From NCBI GenBank assembly GCA_000063525.1, contig CT978603.1, forward strand, positions 491,105 to 555,104: a stretch of 64,000 bases of DNA, written 5' to 3'. The notes under the pieces are model-generated. The model was not told the DNA's origin, did not search any database, and saw only the letters and a list, made by a program, of their open reading frames with translations. Shown one piece after another: positions 1,707 through 34,067 of this stretch. The translations under genes were made by a program, and so were the position numbers. This stretch comes from Synechococcus sp. RCC307. GTDB taxonomy: Bacteria; Cyanobacteriota; Cyanobacteriia; PCC-6307; Cyanobiaceae. The first letter of the stretch is position 1, and the number at the start of each line of letters is the position of its first letter.

Positions 1707-3266
1707 TTAGGCGCCGTTGGCTTCTTCTAAACTGCTGGCATCCACTTGGTTGTATCCACCACCAGTGAGGTCTGCAAGTTTTTCCATCCAGAGCGATTCA
1801 ATTCCAAGTGCAGTGGTATGCACTTTTAATGTTTTGCTGCGATCTACATTTAGTCCTGCATAGTATTGCGCTGTGGGAGCCTCGTCGGATTCTCTCCAGT
1901 ACCCACCATCACGATCGCGATTGGGCTGGCCATCAGAAAGAAAGTAAAGAGCTTCAGTTTCAGGATCTTCAAACGCTGCCTGGATAGCGTCCCAAGGATC
2001 TGTACCACCCCAATAAGTTGGTGAACGATCATCAAGCGTATATACAAATTCAACGGCAGATTCTCGTACACCTTCATTGCCAAGCCTCACTAAATTTGTT
2101 CCAAAATCATCCCACTCTTTGTGGTTGGTGTTTCCAGACGAGCTGAATGAGCGCAAACCAATTCTTGTATCATCGGGTAGGTTATCCAGTAACACTGCAA
2201 GCTCTTTTTGTAATGATTCCATCCGAGTGAATGCACATCTTCGTCTAGTCGTGAAATAGCCATAGCCTGGTTTATAAAACTTACGTTTGTTGGCATAACC
2301 GTCACCCCACATTACACATGCGCTCATTGAACCTGAGCCATCGACGACGAAACGAACTCTATTACTGGATATATTTTGGAAAAATGCCCCACTAAGGATA
2401 CCTCCATTAGAGTCATCACCTAACTTGTTTATACGTTTGTCAGCTCTGGCGAATGCTGCAAAATATAAATCTTGCTTGGTTAAAGTTTTTGTATTGCTCC
2501 TTTTTTCAAGAAAGCTGGCTTTGATATTGTCGACATCAGGACTTTCTTCAGTGGGGTCTACAAATTTGACGAGTTTGTAATTAGAGTCGGTTTCAATTCG
2601 CAGGGCTGGCTCAAAAGGTTGACGATATGGCGTAAAGCCCTCGCTGAACTGAAAACTGACTCCTGATAAGTAGTTTTCTAGTGGCTCCTCAGCCTTACAT
2701 CCAGGGGTTTTGCATGGAACTCTGCCAATATCGTCCAGCACTATTGATAAGAATAAATTTTCACCTTCGTCATTGTATTTACCATCGAGCTTTAGTGGAG
2801 CCCCACATCTAATTAAGGAATAGCCATATCCATTTGTGTTTGTACTAATGCCGTATATGACTGGGTTGATCAAGTCAATCATTTTTGTCCCAAGAATTGG
2901 CTTAAACGACTTATCGCCTGCAAGCTCTGAACACTTGGCAATGGCATCTGAATAGTGTGAGTCATTTAAATCAAGATGCTCCTTTCCTTCTTCAAAGCCA
3001 GCGGAGTTATCGACTACAAGATGAATACTTCTTTCAATTTCTGACCTCATTAGATTCATTCCATTGGCAGTATTTTGTCTCAGTGTCGCTTTGTCATTAG
3101 TCTCTCTAATTAGAGTCTCTGTTGTACGGAGACCAATTGCGGATGCGCCGATTACCAATGTTGATGCAATGGTCGCAACCATCGCTTCTGTCAAGCTAAC
3201 CATCCCAGATTGATGGTAATGATGTAAATCGTGTGTTTTGCCTAAATGACGTTGGAGTCTTTTCAT
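1707..3266 (-). CDS. Type IV prepilin fused to a von Willebrand factor A domain
   Basis: 519 residues. Residues 1-21 form a basic prepilin leader ending SG, followed by MVSLTEAMVATIASTLVIG; the Glu is at mature +6 rather than +5. A pilin-like region with several Cys (112, 154, 185, 190) follows. About residues 303-519 form a VWA domain: the MIDAS motif DGSGS at 309-313, a candidate Thr at 422 in GGTDPW, and the acidic loop LSDGQPN at 443-449. A metal-dependent adhesion domain on a pilin helix predicts a minor pilin exposed at the pilus tip, by analogy with VWA tip adhesins (PilY1, Gram-positive RrgA/GBS104). The gene is AT-rich and last in the leftward pilin cluster. Domain calls are strong; the role is inferred. 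Confidence 0.85.
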   Translation of the reverse strand: MKRLQRHLGKTHDLHHYHQSGMVSLTEAMVATIASTLVIGASAIGLRTTETLIRETNDKATLRQNTANGMNLMRSEIERSIHLVVDNSAGFEEGKEHLDLNDSHYSDAIAKCSELAGDKSFKPILGTKMIDLINPVIYGISTNTNGYGYSLIRCGAPLKLDGKYNDEGENLFLSIVLDDIGRVPCKTPGCKAEEPLENYLSGVSFQFSEGFTPYRQPFEPALRIETDSNYKLVKFVDPTEESPDVDNIKASFLEKRSNTKTLTKQDLYFAAFARADKRINKLGDDSNGGILSGAFFQNISSNRVRFVVDGSGSMSACVMWGDGYANKRKFYKPGYGYFTTRRRCAFTRMESLQKELAVLLDNLPDDTRIGLRSFSSSGNTNHKEWDDFGTNLVRLGNEGVRESAVEFVYTLDDRSPTYWGGTDPWDAIQAAFEDPETEALYFLSDGQPNRDRDGGYWRESDEAPTAQYYAGLNVDRSKTLKVHTTALGIESLWMEKLADLTGGGYNQVDASSLEEANGA

Positions 3267-3399
3267 GAGAAGAGCCCGGTTGAAGTTGGGCTTGCTTAAA
3301 AGAAGCCCTATCTGTTGTACATCTATTGTCCTTGCTTTTGAATTGTCTTGTTTGAACTGCTAGTGAACTCCAACTGAAAATCAGATGATAGATCCGCAT

Positions 3400-4023
3400 T
3401 TATATTAAGCATTTTTCTGATTCTTCGCTCCAAGTCCCGTTGCTGATATTGCCACTGCCAGAAATTTCTACGCAGCGTATTTTTAACCTGCTCTTTCCTG
3501 ACTTGTTCTTAAGGGATTGGAGGTCATGACTTTTGGAGCGTATCAGAATTGTTAAGATACTCGCTTCAGCGCTTGTTCCGGGAGGGCTTATTTCAAAAAA
3601 TGGCTTTGAAGTTGAAATCTCAACAGCATTTCTGTCTTGCATCCCTTCTCTGCTGATTAATCGATACTCTGGCCCACCAACACACCCCTCTTTCGAATTA
3701 CAGCATGAAATACGTTCATTTAGAAATGCTTGTGTTCCGCTAGGTTGTTGAAACTCCAAGATCTCCCAAGGAGCTTTGAATTGGTTAGAGCTCCCAAAAT
3801 TTATTTCACAGCTTGATTTTGTCTTGCCTACTTTTGCTTGCAGACTGAAGAGGCCTGACTCAACTATTTGGGTGTAATTATCAACTTCACTTTGCTTTGC
3901 AGATCGAATTAAACCAGGAAGGCTCCACTTTAAGCCTAGCGATATTATAATCGTCACCACTAATAATTCTACCAGAGTAAACCCTGCCTTATTGCTTCTC
4001 ATGGATTGGCTGTTGTATAACAT
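3400..4023 (-). CDS. GspH/FimT-like minor prepilin
   Basis: 207 residues, or 200 from the second Met at 4002, which gives the compact leader MRSNKAG. Cleavage before FTLVELLVVTIIISLGL is a textbook type III signal with Glu at +5. The mature body has Cys-rich loops (SCEINFG, ISCCNSKEGC), as in FimT/GspH-type minor pilins that prime pilus assembly. AT-rich like its neighbours and separated from them by 130-160 bases. Confidence 0.85.
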   Translation of the reverse strand: MLYNSQSMRSNKAGFTLVELLVVTIIISLGLKWSLPGLIRSAKQSEVDNYTQIVESGLFSLQAKVGKTKSSCEINFGSSNQFKAPWEILEFQQPSGTQAFLNERISCCNSKEGCVGGPEYRLISREGMQDRNAVEISTSKPFFEISPPGTSAEASILTILIRSKSHDLQSLKNKSGKSRLKIRCVEISGSGNISNGTWSEESEKCLI

Positions 4024-4186
4024 CTTGATGAAAAATTAGGATTTAGTTCGACTGTTCTGTACTCCCAGCGTTGGCTTGCATAGGTTTTTCCTTTATACTC
4101 AGGTGCTAAAGAACTTATATTTCGCAATTAATTAAATTTAATCCTGGTTCATTAAGTGTTTTCAAAGGTTTTTTCAATCGGGCTTG

Positions 4187-4528
4187 TCACGCCTGGTGGT
4201 CTGGAGCTGGAACTTTTTGAGAAAGATGAGCCTCTAGTTCCATTGTTGGATTTTTGCATCCACGTACTTGCTGTTCATTGCTCATATCTTCAAAGCGTAG
4301 ATATGAGTCCTCCATTTGCAGCATCTGAATATTGTTGCTTATCGAAGCCTCGATTCGTTGACGTTCAGCTTGTTTAGCACTGCTTGCTAATGCCGAAGTG
4401 CTGAGTCGGCTTACACCAATCATTATTCCTGCCATGAGAATACCAGCCACCAAAACCTCTACGAGTGTGAAGCCCTCAGGATCACTCGAAACTTTCGAGC
4501 TCAGATATGCTGTTATACGACTATGCAT
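4187..4528 (-). CDS. PilV/GspI-like minor prepilin
   Basis: 113 residues. The leader of 19 residues ends DPEG, followed by FTLVEVLVAGILMAGIMIG, with Glu at +5 and the AxxxxG-type helix usual in PilV/GspI. The mature part is short (about 94 residues), compatible with a small initiation-complex pilin. It lies between the GspH-like and PilX-like prepilins, an order typical of minor pilin operons (H-I-J-K / FimT-PilV-PilW-PilX). Confidence 0.82.
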   Translation of the reverse strand: MHSRITAYLSSKVSSDPEGFTLVEVLVAGILMAGIMIGVSRLSTSALASSAKQAERQRIEASISNNIQMLQMEDSYLRFEDMSNEQQVRGCKNPTMELEAHLSQKVPAPDHQA

Positions 4529-4640
4529 CTTGCATAAGTCTCTGCATTTATTTTGGCAATTTTAGGTTGATTTTTTCTTTGCAACTATAGAAGTCTCCCT
4601 GAAGATTCTCTATCTGTCTGGTTGGTATTACCTGAGATAG

Positions 4641-6302
4641 TTACCATCGTTGGAATGTATCAAACTCTGTTCCACGGATTCCGCGAGTTACCATGCGTCC
4701 AAAGCCAGGAAATCCATTTTTACTCCACTCCCAGAGTTCATCTGCTGCACGTACAACTGTTTTTTGATTCTCTTCTGTTATTAAATGAATGCCCCCTTCT
4801 TGAGCACAAATACTATGAGCCCAGATTACACCATGAAGTATTGCGTTTCCTGTTGTTCGAACTGTTCCGCGTGGCAGATGGATAAATGCGTGAGGAAGAT
4901 TGCTCCCCTCAACGCTGAGAACGTGTGTTGTTGAATCGCAGTCCATTCCTGCTTGCCCCGCATTAGCTGTTATGACGAAGCGTTCAGGCTGCTTATTACA
5001 GGTTTCACCATCTGAAGTTCCACATAGCTTGCTAGAACCTGTGAGCTTGATTTGACCGCTCAAGTTGCTAGACACGTTATCTCCCTGTGGTCTTTCTAGG
5101 TGAATGACAATAGGCCTGTCTTTATTGTCAATCAACACAGTAGTTGTCGAAAGATTTAGGTGCTCAATGAAGACATGGCATTCAAATCCGTCTTGACCTT
5201 CACAAAGTACATCTGAGCCTATGATAACAGTATTAGTATTGTCTGATTGATCTAATGTGACTCTTTCTGGTACGGCAAAAATATCGTTGTTGGTTTTTCG
5301 AGTACACACAATTGAGTTTGGACATTTTTGTTGAAAAGCAAGACTGCCTGGATTTTTCTCGGGATCAGGATCTTCTGGGCTGTCATCAAAGCTCCATATT
5401 CTTGGTGAACCATCAATTTGATCAACTAAATTTGCTTTTGTAAATAGGCTGGTAAGTGGAAGCTTCCTGTTCCAGATAGGCCAAACCTTGTTGCCAAGAT
5501 CATCATCATACGAACCTACTGCTGTTGCTCGATTGCCAGGAGTACAGCTAGCAGCCGATTGATAGTCTGAAGGGTCTTCAATTTCTAATAGAATTAGCCC
5601 AGAATTTTTCTGATTGTTGCTACTGTCTGTTATTTTTGATTGTCCTAATTGCATATAGTTGCCGGCCATGACACCCCAGTCACCCTCCGCTACAACTTTT
5701 GACTCAACATAAAGCGACCGTGTTAGCAAAGTTCTGGCTAGATAGTTGCCATCGCTTTCACCATCGCCACGCGTAACAAATCCCTCTATCTCGAATGTGC
5801 CAATACTCTTTTCACCTCCATTAAGGACGGAGTAGTTTCTGAGGCGATATGCCAGATTGACATCGCCCTGGCCATCATTGCGTTGGGTTTCTGAGGAGAT
5901 TTTAATGCTGTCCCTTGGCCAATTTGTTGGCATGCCGACAGTTGTGTCAGTGCATAGTTCTTGTAATGGATTTGGCCTTGGGTCATTATTGACGGTCTCC
6001 CAGTCCCAGCTTTCATCTCCGTCAATTTCTGGATCGCCTTCATTATTATTAAGCTGCAAATAATATCCTCTGTAGTTATCGTCATCATCCTTGTTGACAA
6101 TGCCTAGGACTCTATTGAAGCCATTGATTGCGGCTGATTGAGCCATCTGTTGATAGCTCTTTGAAGCTCCTATTCTTCTGTTCATGGTGATCTTGCTCAC
6201 CAAGGCGCCTGATCCAGCAACTAGCAAGAGGCCCATCATCAAGGTCATTGCTAGAGCCATGCCCTGCTCGCTTTTTGCTGTTTTTGGGCTGTGCCTCACC
6301 AT
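4641..6302 (-). CDS. Large PilX-like minor prepilin
   Basis: The frame is open to 6377, but ATG 6302 gives the fitting leader MVRHSPKTAKSEQG, followed by MALAMTLMMGLLLVAGSGAL, a PilX-type helix without Glu5. At about 553 residues it is far larger than PilX (about 200). The body is Asp/Asn-rich, and its C-terminal half reads like stacked beta strands (VLSVEGSNLPHAFIHLPRG, then TGNAILHGVIWAHSI), the style seen in large cyanobacterial PilX-type proteins. It starts 10 bases after the previous pilin stop, so the two are probably co-translated. Confidence 0.8.
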   Translation of the reverse strand: MVRHSPKTAKSEQGMALAMTLMMGLLLVAGSGALVSKITMNRRIGASKSYQQMAQSAAINGFNRVLGIVNKDDDDNYRGYYLQLNNNEGDPEIDGDESWDWETVNNDPRPNPLQELCTDTTVGMPTNWPRDSIKISSETQRNDGQGDVNLAYRLRNYSVLNGGEKSIGTFEIEGFVTRGDGESDGNYLARTLLTRSLYVESKVVAEGDWGVMAGNYMQLGQSKITDSSNNQKNSGLILLEIEDPSDYQSAASCTPGNRATAVGSYDDDLGNKVWPIWNRKLPLTSLFTKANLVDQIDGSPRIWSFDDSPEDPDPEKNPGSLAFQQKCPNSIVCTRKTNNDIFAVPERVTLDQSDNTNTVIIGSDVLCEGQDGFECHVFIEHLNLSTTTVLIDNKDRPIVIHLERPQGDNVSSNLSGQIKLTGSSKLCGTSDGETCNKQPERFVITANAGQAGMDCDSTTHVLSVEGSNLPHAFIHLPRGTVRTTGNAILHGVIWAHSICAQEGGIHLITEENQKTVVRAADELWEWSKNGFPGFGRMVTRGIRGTEFDTFQRW

Positions 6303-6312
6303 GGCTGCTAAC

Positions 6313-6798
6313 TTATGTAGAGCAAACAAGGCTTGATTTTGAGGCTGCAAGTTTTTTGTTTCCAGATATAATTTCACTCTCGCCAGTCGCTACATTGATG
6401 CACCCAACTGAATTTTGAGACTGAGATTTAATTTCTATTGGCTTTACTTCAAACGTGTAGCGGTTCCCAGACCGACTTCCTGATGCGGCATAGTGGCCTC
6501 CTTGTAAAACTATGCTTGAAAAGTTTGAGCCTGATGCTGTCCCAGTTGTAGTCATAATTGATGCAATCTCATCGAGGTCGCTCCATCCTTCTGCAGGCCT
6601 GCTGTATTCATCATTGAATGCCGCGGCGTGCATCATGAGTTGGTTTAATGTTGACTCGGCTTCGTCCTGCCGAGTGCTTTGCAGAGTCCCTAAATAGTTG
6701 GGAATGGCAATCGTTGTTAGAACTCCAAGAATCGCTACTGATGCCATTAGTTCTGTCAATGTAAATCCTTTGTTCTTCTGGCAAAATTGCTGCCTCAT
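6313..6798 (-). CDS. PilA/PilE-like prepilin
   Basis: About 161 residues from ATG 6798; a GTG at 6807 is in frame but is overlapped by the ribosome-binding site. The leader ends KNKG, cleaved before FTLTELMASVAILGVLTTIAIPNYLG, a canonical pilin helix with Glu5 and the AIPNY turn. The C-terminal region has two Cys (GCINVAT and SLVCST) able to form the D-region disulfide loop. It lies 86 bases downstream of the likely major pilin and could be a second structural pilin. Confidence 0.88.
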   Translation of the reverse strand: MRQQFCQKNKGFTLTELMASVAILGVLTTIAIPNYLGTLQSTRQDEAESTLNQLMMHAAAFNDEYSRPAEGWSDLDEIASIMTTTGTASGSNFSSIVLQGGHYAASGSRSGNRYTFEVKPIEIKSQSQNSVGCINVATGESEIISGNKKLAASKSSLVCST

Positions 6799-6806
6799 GC
6801 CAAGCA

Positions 6807-6812
6807 CCTCCC
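6807..6812 (-). promoter_or_regulatory. Strong ribosome-binding site deciding the pilin start at 6798
   Basis: On the minus strand GGGAGG lies 8 bases before ATG 6798. It overlaps the alternative GTG at 6807, which makes the ATG the better start. Confidence 0.5.
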
Positions 6813-6832
6813 ACTTGTGTGTGATTTATTTG

Positions 6833-6867
6833 AGGTGGCAGGAAAGGTTATTCCTTTGTTGCCACCT
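6833..6867 (-). terminator. Long hairpin directly after the putative major pilin
   Basis: AGGTGGCA at 6833-6840 pairs perfectly with TGCCACCT at 6860-6867. The interior GGAAAGG/CCTTT adds a second stem around a short TTATT-type loop. It sits 17 bases after the pilA-like stop. On the minus strand no T-run follows, so it looks more like a 3' stabilising or attenuating hairpin than a complete intrinsic terminator. Confidence 0.55.
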
Positions 6868-6884
6868 CTTTAGGCTCACTTTTT

Positions 6885-7400
6885 TTAACCAGCAGGAGTA
6901 TCGTCTGCGCAGTCTGCAGCATCCACATCGCCTATGGCTACTGAGGCTCCTGTTTTTGTGTTTACGTCCCTGCGGCCATTGGCTCCATTCACGCATGCCT
7001 TGGCTGCATATTTTCCGGCTAGATCACTGCCTGTTTTACCCACAGCAGTGATTCCGTAGCTAGGAGCAGTTTGAGTTGCATCTGCTTCAAATGTGCAGTT
7101 TCTGCTGTTGGTTGATGCAGTGGCAATTTCTGACTCCAGTAGAGCTGCAGCTTGTGTTGAACTTGCCAAGTGCTCAGCTCCAACTTGACTGAGGATGTTA
7201 CCAATTTTTTGTGCACATTCTGTTCCTTGTGCTTTGCTTGTTTGACTTAAGAAGTTCGGTAGTGCAACTGCCGACAAAATGCCCACAATCACAATGACGA
7301 CCATCAGCTCCACCAACGTGAAGCCCTTTTGAAGGATATTTTTCTTGCCTTTGGCCTTTTGAAGAAGCGCCAAACGCAGAGAAGGATTTAGAGAAGTCAT
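6885..7400 (-). CDS. pilA: Type IV major pilin-like protein (PilA)
   Basis: 171 residues. A long basic leader (about 25 residues, ending NILQKG) precedes FTLVELMVVIVIVGILSAVALPNFL, the classic pilin N-terminal helix with Glu5. The mature body has paired Cys (GTECAQKIG, NCTFEAD, KACVNGANG, AADCADD) and a small Gly/Ala/Asp-rich C-terminal loop. It is first in the leftward cluster and followed by a hairpin that could keep its transcript in excess, both fitting a major subunit. Several PilA-like genes per genome are usual, so major status is inferred. Confidence 0.88.
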   Translation of the reverse strand: MTSLNPSLRLALLQKAKGKKNILQKGFTLVELMVVIVIVGILSAVALPNFLSQTSKAQGTECAQKIGNILSQVGAEHLASSTQAAALLESEIATASTNSRNCTFEADATQTAPSYGITAVGKTGSDLAGKYAAKACVNGANGRRDVNTKTGASVAIGDVDAADCADDTPAG

Positions 7401-31274: not shown

Positions 31275-32585
31275 ATGTTGCATCGGCCAGCTCTGGCGCT
31301 CTGTTTGGCCGTACCTCTGCTGACGTCAATCGGCACCCAGGCAGCCCCGGCTCGGCCAGATGGACCCTGGGGTCGTTCAGTTAGTTCAAGCATTGATAAT
31401 GATGCCTCTGATCGCTATCAATGGCGGGCATGCAAGGCTGTAGCTGGTGCATTGGAGGCGGGGCAATCCGTTAGGTGTGAAACTCTTGTTGATGCGGATA
31501 ATCAATCTAATTCGACTGTTCAGAAGATCTTTGTAACTGGCGCCTCCTATGCGACGAGGATATTTCCTCTCCTGAATTCGGCATCGCTTTCTGATGGCAT
31601 CCAAAAGATGCTATGGATGGATTCGAAGAGCTTTATTGTTTCATTTGCCCATGATTATCTCAATGAATATGTTCTAAAACAGATTCCATTCTTGTCTCAG
31701 ACTGAATTTGGGGTTGGCTTTGAGTCTGATGCTGACATGACTTACTACCTAAATAGTTTGATCAGCCTTGCTCAGCTTGGATCTGATGATAACGGTTATC
31801 CCCTAGGCCTTCTTTTCGCTCAGGGGAGTGCTAAGGGTGCCTATTCGGGGTCGGCTGTTACTAATTTAGGGCTTGGTTTGCGTAGACGGCTAAGAGATAA
31901 TGCAATGCTCGGTGCAAATGCTTTCTGGGATTACCGCTTTACTAATTACAGTTCTTCTTATAGTCGATGGGGCGCTGGAGCAGAGTTGTGGTGGGATGAT
32001 TTCAAGTTGACTAATAATTGGTATATCGCTGGAACTGGCATCAAGCGCATCACAACCAGCGGACGTGCCTATACAGATACAACATCGTTGGCGGCAGGTA
32101 CATATGATGAAACCACGCTTTTGGGTGCTAATACATTTGACGAACGTGTTGTTCCTGGCTGGGATGTTGCCTTGAACTATCGTCTTCCAAGTTATCCACA
32201 GCTTTCTTTGGGAATTAGAGGTTTCCGCTGGGACTACATGCGCAAGAGTGATAACTCAGGTGTTGAAGGATCTGTGAATTGGCAAGCCACTCCTCACACT
32301 AATTTGTCAGCCTGGATTTCAAGCGAGATTCCGGCCTATCCGGCACAATCTAATGCCCAGCTATCCAGTGGTGATGATGTCTATGTGGGGGTGCGTTTCA
32401 ATGTCCAATTAAAGCCAGTGACTTACAAAACAGGCAGTAATCGCATTCGTGAAAACCTGCTGACTCAGATGAGGCAGCCCGTTCAGCGTCGTAATGATGT
32501 TCTTTTGGAGCGTTGGAAGCCTAAGCAGAAAAAGACTATTGGTGGTGTGAATGGATCATTCATCAATCAAGCTGCTGGTATCTAA
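31275..32585 (+). CDS. Inverse autotransporter (intimin/invasin-type) beta-barrel without passenger
   Basis: 436 residues. Signal peptide about 1-23. The barrel shows the type Ve pattern: NLGLGLRRRL, MLGANAFWDYRF, YSRWGAGAELWWDDFKLTNN, then DERVVPGWDVALNYRLPSYP and GIRGFRWDY, with the closing LLTQMRQPVQRRNDVLLE that normally leads into Ig-like passenger domains. Here only about 25 residues follow, so the surface-exposed passenger is missing. No LysM domain precedes the barrel. The gene is AT-rich and sits just after tRNA-Ser. The barrel call is strong; the role without a passenger is unknown. Confidence 0.82.
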   Translation: MLHRPALALCLAVPLLTSIGTQAAPARPDGPWGRSVSSSIDNDASDRYQWRACKAVAGALEAGQSVRCETLVDADNQSNSTVQKIFVTGASYATRIFPLLNSASLSDGIQKMLWMDSKSFIVSFAHDYLNEYVLKQIPFLSQTEFGVGFESDADMTYYLNSLISLAQLGSDDNGYPLGLLFAQGSAKGAYSGSAVTNLGLGLRRRLRDNAMLGANAFWDYRFTNYSSSYSRWGAGAELWWDDFKLTNNWYIAGTGIKRITTSGRAYTDTTSLAAGTYDETTLLGANTFDERVVPGWDVALNYRLPSYPQLSLGIRGFRWDYMRKSDNSGVEGSVNWQATPHTNLSAWISSEIPAYPAQSNAQLSSGDDVYVGVRFNVQLKPVTYKTGSNRIRENLLTQMRQPVQRRNDVLLERWKPKQKKTIGGVNGSFINQAAGI

Positions 32586-32623
32586 ACTTTTTTCTTTGAC
32601 CAGCCTCGTCGCGTCTTAAATTC

Positions 32624-33520
32624 ATGCCTTATTCTCCCAACCCCAGATCCCAAGCAGCCTTCTTTAGGAGATCTTTCAAGGCCCTTTTGGCTTGTGCTTC
32701 TGCCGCTGCGTTGTCTGTCACAGCTGCTAAGGCACAAGAAGACGAATTAAATGTTGTATGTCCTCCCACAGATACAAGGCCAAATTTAGGCGTAGTGGCC
32801 ACGTCTGAAGCGTATTGTGCTGGAACGCCTGAAAAGTATCAACTCATTATTTATGAGATGGGTCTATGCACTTCTAATCCAACTTCTTCTAACGTATTGG
32901 ATCAGTCTTCCTGTACGCCAACATTTAGATCTGAAGGTGGTACTACTGTGAACTTGGCTGGTGGTGCGGTCATTGATCTTGGGTCAAGCGAAGAATCTGA
33001 TCTGGGGAGGCCTGAGGACAACTCTTATTCATACGCCTACATTATTATTTCTAATAGATTTGTCTTGAGGGCTAAGTGGGGGAATACAGATGGAATTACT
33101 TATTATTCAAATCCTGGCGGATTGAATAATGTCAGTTTATCTCCTCCCGCTCTTGACTTTGTTGAGGATCTGTCAAGCTTTGATGAAGGGTTTGATCCGG
33201 TTTACCCGCCTATTATTGTTAGAGGCGGTACATTGGCTGCTTTGCTATTGAAATCTGATTTAACTCCAGCATCCAATGGATTAGAGGTTGGAAGACTGGT
33301 GGGAACTTTTAAGCCTCAAGCCAGCTTAGTGATTGATGAAGCAGTTAAAGGTCTGAAGGTCGAGCTCACTGTTTCGAATAGCGGTTTGACCGTTGGAGTC
33401 GGCGAAAATCCTGGCGACTTTAATGGTCCTCCAAGTGATCCTCGTGCTTTTAATTGCTATCAGCAGCCTTGTAGTTATGGGTCAGGTCCTTTTCAGCCAA
33501 CATTCACCTTGATTAAGTAA
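32624..33520 (+). CDS. Exported protein of unknown family, downstream of the inverse autotransporter
   Basis: 298 residues. A basic N-terminus and a Sec signal peptide ending AAKA at about 37. The mature part is acidic, rich in Ser, Asn and Pro, with about eight Cys arranged in pairs (VVCPP/AYCAG, GLCTSN/SSCTP, FNCYQQPC), suggesting disulfide-bonded extracellular or periplasmic domains. Predicted beta-rich. It lies 38 bases after the barrel gene in the same AT-rich islet, so the two may be co-transcribed and may work together. No family recognised. Confidence 0.7.
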   Translation: MPYSPNPRSQAAFFRRSFKALLACASAAALSVTAAKAQEDELNVVCPPTDTRPNLGVVATSEAYCAGTPEKYQLIIYEMGLCTSNPTSSNVLDQSSCTPTFRSEGGTTVNLAGGAVIDLGSSEESDLGRPEDNSYSYAYIIISNRFVLRAKWGNTDGITYYSNPGGLNNVSLSPPALDFVEDLSSFDEGFDPVYPPIIVRGGTLAALLLKSDLTPASNGLEVGRLVGTFKPQASLVIDEAVKGLKVELTVSNSGLTVGVGENPGDFNGPPSDPRAFNCYQQPCSYGSGPFQPTFTLIK

Positions 33521-33617: not shown

Positions 33618-34067
33618 TTAGTGACAGCCTTGTACAGATATTCGGTAGCTGAAGCCGGAGGCTCCGGGGTCTTTGCTGGCGCCAATTTTGAAATTCACTT
33701 GGCTCACAGCCTTGCCGCTTGGGACTGTGAAAGGCCCAAACATGCTGCCGGTCCCCACCGGTGGCTTCATTGATTCATCGACCACGCGCAGGTTCGAACC
33801 ATCGCTGAATTTGAGGTAAGCCTCGATCGGATAGGTGGCCTGTTCGGTGGATTGCGCTGTGAAGAACAGCTTGTAACTGCGGTAGGGCTGGTTGACGCTG
33901 AAATCCGTGTTCCAGTTCGTGCGGCCTAACGCCATCCGCAAAGGAGAAACCTTCGGTCGATCCACCCGCTTGGTCACGGTGGTGTTGCCGTCACCGCCGA
34001 TCGGTTGGAGGAACTCGCAGTTACCGGAGGCCAATAGCAGCCCGCTCAGGCTGGCTAGTAGGAGCAT
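33618..34067 (-). CDS. Small exported protein, unknown function
   Basis: 149 residues. The N-terminus MLLLASLSGLLLASG is a short signal peptide; the Cys at about 17 is preceded by N, so a lipobox is not convincing. The mature part reads as a beta-sandwich (YRSYKLFFTAQSTEQATY, PIEAYLKFSDGSNLRVVD, GPFTVPSGKAVSQVNFKIG) and ends with Cys near the C-terminus. No family recognised. It is GC-richer than the islet to its left. Confidence 0.6.
   Translation of the reverse strand: MLLLASLSGLLLASGNCEFLQPIGGDGNTTVTKRVDRPKVSPLRMALGRTNWNTDFSVNQPYRSYKLFFTAQSTEQATYPIEAYLKFSDGSNLRVVDESMKPPVGTGSMFGPFTVPSGKAVSQVNFKIGASKDPGASGFSYRISVQGCH

Follow-up and report, generated by a model that had tools for sequence, protein, structure and literature searches.

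Two adjacent genes in Synechococcus sp. RCC307 probably encode a split inverse autotransporter of type Ve, made of two polypeptides: a barrel that lacks a covalent passenger, and a separate passenger that docks on a class-specific tail of the barrel by β-strand addition. An earlier note on this DNA had suggested that the exported protein was the passenger that the barrel lacks, supplied as a polypeptide of its own. In silico, the barrel and its partner are linked across genomes (they are adjacent and they co-occur), the tail and the partner are matched and covary, and the tail is predicted to dock as a strand, all of which support that suggestion.

The barrel gene and the partner gene

The window (the entire stretch of 64,000 nucleotides that we analyzed) includes these features:

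31275..32585, + strand: gene for the passenger-less inverse-autotransporter barrel, 436 amino acids
31551..32495, + strand: IAT_beta domain (Pfam match; barrel residues 93-407)
32469..32513, + strand: conserved linker and its terminal strand, MRQPVQRRNDVLLER (barrel residues 399-413), which aligns with SRYDLVDRNNNIVLEY of YeeJ and SRYDNPQRNNLPTLEY of YchO from E. coli K-12
32514..32582, + strand: C-terminal tail of the barrel (residues 414-436), with the end NGSFINQAAGI, the proposed docking strand; tail class tracks partner class, and a homologous tail is predicted to be a β strand on the partner
32586..32623, + strand: spacer of 38 nt between the barrel's stop codon and the partner gene
32624..33520, + strand: exported Cys-containing partner, 298 amino acids, the proposed separate passenger, from a family that is found next to barrels
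32624..32734, + strand: export signal of the partner (residues 1-37), with n-, h- and c-regions by inspection, ending in AKA before a Q
33332..33376, + strand: partner residues 237-251 (IDEAVKGLKVELTVS), the candidate tail-docking strand, which has the highest association with the tail and includes the strand predicted at residues 206-212 of the mature model

The barrel matches the full PF11924 domain (positions 3-279 of the profile's 279, E = 5e-72). IAT_beta was its sole Pfam match at E ≤ 10; no POTRA domain was found in the barrel, and no TPS domain in either member of the pair. The chain ends just 23 residues after the VLLER strand of the linker, and a same-chain C-terminal passenger is absent. 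Related barrels end 10-23 amino acids past VLLER. Among the loci we compared, no complete barrel had a fused passenger and no natural fusion of the barrel and partner genes was seen. We rejected a phage origin for the barrel, which is on no viral contig.

The start of the barrel gene is 165 nt downstream of a tRNA-Ser. As the earlier note had described, 38 nucleotides separate the two genes, and both are AT-rich (47.2% GC for the barrel gene and 44.5% for the partner gene, versus 59.7% for the window). Another AT-rich stretch lies at 2001-7000 (41-46% GC), amid parts of the window with 60-66% GC. A small exported-looking protein with no family match is encoded at 33618-34067 on the − strand, convergent with the partner gene.

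The partner is a real gene, as judged by conservation: a profile search of 200 Cyanobiaceae genomes found relatives in 27. Its N-terminus (FFRRSFKALLACASAAALSVTAAKA, followed by Q) looks by inspection like a typical export signal, and the mature protein has 261 amino acids and a pI of 4.3, so it was correctly described as acidic and exported. The β-rich pattern that had been noticed in the sequence is borne out by an all-β AlphaFold model (pLDDT 85.2, pTM 0.86). The count of about eight cysteines was slightly too high: there are seven, one of which is in the signal peptide, leaving six in the mature chain. Four of these (C46, C65, C82, and C97) are invariant in alignments of the family. The signal peptide also contains a twin-arginine-like RRSFK, which is absent from most of the relatives that we compared, so we rejected Tat export as a feature of the family.

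We found no family match for the window's partner in Pfam or NCBIfam (E ≤ 10), and no known family from these databases that is common to the members of the partner family. The PDB contains no relative by sequence (best E = 0.76). A Foldseek search of the PDB and of viral models gave no match at E ≤ 0.001, and VIA-align gave Z scores under 5, so we do not claim any fold for the partner, either known or new. We also considered the MbnP-like proteins with four cysteines (TIGR04052) as relatives, and rejected them by profile (no NCBIfam match at E ≤ 10). MbnP was absent among the 50 members of the partner family that we scanned, hhalign against six MbnP proteins gave a probability of 0.3%, and a structure comparison of MbnP (7l6g) with the tail-docked model gave Z = 4.3, which is below the level of meaning.

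Barrels and partners occur together

The same closed genome (2,224,914 bp) has a second barrel-partner pair at about 2,138.8-2,140.9 kb (positions 38-2205 of locus L002), with the same gene order and a similarly short spacer. Its tail is different (ENGSITSIAQGI), and its partner is about 25-31% identical to the window's.

Passenger-less barrels (PF11924 matches that are full-length or cut by the end of a contig) are present in 25 of the same 200 Cyanobiaceae genomes. All 25 also encode a partner, while two genomes have the partner only and 173 have neither (Fisher exact test ignoring kinship, P = 8e-30). Within genera, presence of the pair is patchy. Another 8 genomes have just partial matches to PF11924, in longer open reading frames (450-1398 amino acids), and all of these lack the partner.

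Because the partner family is so variable, a scan of the genome contigs with the window's partner as a single sequence gave no match. The alignment of partners was too diverse for a pattern search, so we used the barrel alignment instead, which identified 66 named loci. In 62 of the 66, the next gene is a partner by profile, on the same strand as the barrel and mostly less than 60 nt away. In L052 and L087, the gene after the barrel encodes an exported protein that has diverged yet has a motif of the same kind (YE[IM]GFRDS). The sequence of the other two loci (L094 and L099) is cut off or masked, which leaves an adjacent partner in 64 of 64 assessable loci. In other words, the co-occurrence search that the earlier note proposed finds the two families together and adjacent almost perfectly.

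There are variations on this arrangement. Where the tails are of the W.[AV]R[VL] type, the barrels are followed by diverged partners with a YE[IMV]GF motif (L052:7006-7758, L087:4720-5430, and L105:332-1093), in which the four conserved cysteines are mostly missing. Two partner genes lie in tandem behind one barrel in L011/L027, L012, L038, L047, L050, L058, and L063, and in certain genomes, each of two barrels has a partner of its own. Some genomes also have unpaired partners elsewhere (L103, L107, and L108). As evidence against matching, the class of the unpaired partner does not fit the tail of the barrel that is present in two cases (G037/L107 and G087/L103), both in draft genomes. In the two genomes that have the partner only, the family members are very divergent and lie in operons with type IV pilin-like genes and no barrel (L119, which is G118:C1:54000-66000, and L120). 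The pilin next to a divergent member has a long GN repeat.

The class of the tail tracks the class of the partner

Past the conserved VLLER, the barrels end in short strand-like tails of about 10-20 residues. The types of tails include F.NRAKG, F.NRVGG, FQVRGG, MEVGG, VKFKG, W.ARV, TFTVRVSAQGT, and others. We compared tails to partners across 74 pairs and across a subset of these with close barrels (n = 33).

Distances between tails are correlated with distances between partners (Spearman-Mantel rho = 0.65, 0 of 2,000 permutations). The partial correlation, given the barrel core, is also 0.65 (0 of 2,000 permutations), and the value for the close-barrel subset is 0.74. The barrel core itself has little association with the partner (Mantel correlation of 0.08, which 364 of 2,000 permutations reach). 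No other 15-residue segment of the barrel exceeds 0.17 over the 74 pairs, or 0.33 in the small subset. At third codon positions in the 39 nt directly preceding the tail, the correlation is 0.06 with the partner versus 0.59 with the core.

We defined eight motif classes for the tails after seeing them; tabulated against unsupervised clusters of partners, these classes gave a nearly one-to-one table. On the tree of barrels, the class of the tail and the class of the partner each change 22 times, and in phylogenetically independent contrasts, 10 of 10 switches agree (P = 0.002). Barrels that are over 90% identical may carry partners that are under 30% identical, and the tail follows the partner (L065/L095, L050/L069, and L063 within the V group).

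This association could arise in part from swapping of cassettes whose breakpoints fall at the conserved VLLER codons. Taken further, the tail and the partner might merely be co-inherited: recombination between conserved barrel ends would swap a single cassette, with no physical contact between its products. The association does start exactly at the end of the VLLER codons, which is where a homologous-recombination breakpoint is expected, and barrel cores that are at least 90% identical carry unrelated partners. However, within partner classes, tails are 53-74% identical while partners are down to 36-50%. Because tails of same-class pairs are still 60% identical where the partners are under 50% identical, and the spacers are randomized (their similarity is that of shuffled DNA), passive co-inheritance alone does not explain the matching well. 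Also, one strand of the partner is a better correlate of the tail than the entire partner is: the segments of the partner that are best associated with the tail center on IDEAVKGLKVELTVS (rho = 0.697, partial 0.52). Given that AlphaFold specifically docks the tail as well (see below), we consider co-inheritance without contact to be unlikely.

A predicted docking strand

To model docking, we used locus L065, in which the end of the barrel, the stop codon, and the partner share one frame, and we read the stop codon as glycine. The alignment for this model had 18 paired read-through rows as well as rows for the partner only. In the AlphaFold model, a β strand lies exactly at the tail TFQNRAKGV (residues 31-39), although the read-through tethers the tail to the partner, which limits the model as evidence of docking. 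The pLDDT is 86 over residues 31-40 and under 50 in the flanks (up to VLLER on one side, and the spacer and signal peptide on the other). Since DSSP assigns a strand only where there is a pairing partner, the modeled tail must be paired. The best candidate for the tail's docking site is the stretch IDEAVKGLKVELTVS. The earlier note had also proposed a check for contact with the barrel, and in silico, covariation of the tail with the partner and the predicted docking strand in the tethered model provide an answer.

How a split autotransporter might work

In E. coli K-12, the counterparts of the linker QPVQRRNDVLLER by alignment are DLVDRNNNIVLEY in YeeJ and NPQRNNLPTLEY in YchO. The equivalent strand of intimin makes a β sheet with loops on the extracellular face, and the passenger begins directly afterwards (PMC13078405). 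By homology, then, the tail should lie outside the cell, at the position where a passenger begins.

Our proposal is that the barrel inserts into the outer membrane and that its conserved linker threads the pore, as in intimin. The short C-terminal tail would emerge outside, where the covalent passenger normally starts. The passenger would be replaced by a separately exported, disulfide-containing β protein, which would bind the tail non-covalently as an added strand. Matched classes of tail and partner would be swapped together beneath a conserved barrel, and because of this swapping, the partner is likely to be exposed on the surface and to be diversifying (for adhesion or for interactions with phages or grazers). 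We infer this biological role, as well as the partner's location outside the cell and its passage across the outer membrane. The partner might cross with the help of the barrel and BAM, or by a type IV pilus or secretin; divergent relatives are encoded in a pilin-like operon, which makes the pilus route worth considering. To our knowledge, no known route takes a folded, disulfide-bonded second polypeptide through a barrel of 12 strands, which counts against a split autotransporter.

Alternatively, the partner might be periplasmic and bind the barrel from the inside, as a chaperone, plug, or assembly factor, with the tail reaching into the periplasm. This would fit with its export signal and conserved cysteines, with the lack of any known outer-membrane export signal, and with barrels that have no covalent passenger to carry out. 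But the linker, with its terminal strand, is shared with canonical members of the family, in which the linker strand is extracellular. Across the same 33 loci, partners vary much more than barrels do (mean identities of 33% and 82%), and such variability is typical of exposed proteins. We view a periplasmic partner as improbable. An ordinary operon for two exported proteins with unrelated functions would account for the short spacer and the common composition of the genes, but it is very hard to reconcile with near-perfect co-occurrence despite patchy presence, or with the matching of tail and partner classes.

We are evenly divided as to whether the pair exemplifies a new kind of two-component surface display in marine picocyanobacteria. 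In such a system, a conserved barrel would present an "address" strand, and exported passengers of many classes would dock only on the matching strand. With this modular lock and key, the cells would alter their surface by swapping cassettes of tail plus partner, and a cell could have several orthogonal pairs.

Comparison to known systems

The window's barrel belongs to the same family (PF11924) as the type Ve inverse autotransporters intimin, invasin, and YeeJ, and has the same linker motif. Unlike those proteins, barrels of the window's type have no covalent passenger, a tail of 10-23 amino acids, and a separate gene for the partner. Two-partner secretion (type Vb) also uses separate polypeptides for the barrel (TpsB) and the passenger (TpsA), but TpsB has POTRA domains and 16 strands, while the window's pair has neither POTRA nor TPS domains. 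In donor-strand complementation in chaperone-usher pili, a short strand from one protein completes the β fold of another, much as we propose here. The window's pair has no match to fimbrial or chaperone families, and would work like these pili without being a member of their family.

The earlier note knew of no described inverse autotransporter with two genes, which was not quite right. Tsai et al. (2010, PMC3008723) reported that cyanobacterial Int/Inv proteins are barrel-only and named non-covalent passengers as a possibility. They described two operons, for Yfr4 and Ahy1, with passenger-like downstream ORFs, and found the genomic context of other short members to be uninformative. Their barrel-only cluster E very likely includes the same barrels that we studied, but they described neither a partner nor a genomic pairing for it, nor any specificity of the tail. 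As in the window, the Yfr4 and Ahy1 operons have an inverse-autotransporter gene followed by exported ORFs, which were proposed to be extra passenger parts. Those ORFs have repeats like those of classical passengers, while the window's partner matches no family in Pfam or NCBIfam. A 2015 survey (PMC4365693) listed intimin/invasin barrels in Prochlorales and Synechococcus, with no partner, and according to a 2019 review (PMC6555100), only type Vb has separate chains. Neither the partner family nor the matching of tails was described in the open-access literature that we searched. Within that literature, the barrel-only cyanobacterial members and the idea of a non-covalent passenger have been known since 2010, and the partner and the proposed docking tail are new.

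Implications

Type Ve is defined by a passenger that shares a chain with the barrel. A split form in which a strand docks specifically, if true, would answer what the barrel-only members do, a question that has stood since 2010. The correspondence from tail class to partner class amounts to a code that can be read from sequence, and matched pairs of tails and partners could serve as orthogonal tags for protein display. Prochlorococcus and Synechococcus dominate photosynthesis in the ocean. The partner appears to be a component of their surface that diversifies quickly, which makes it a candidate for interactions with phages, with grazers, or between cells.
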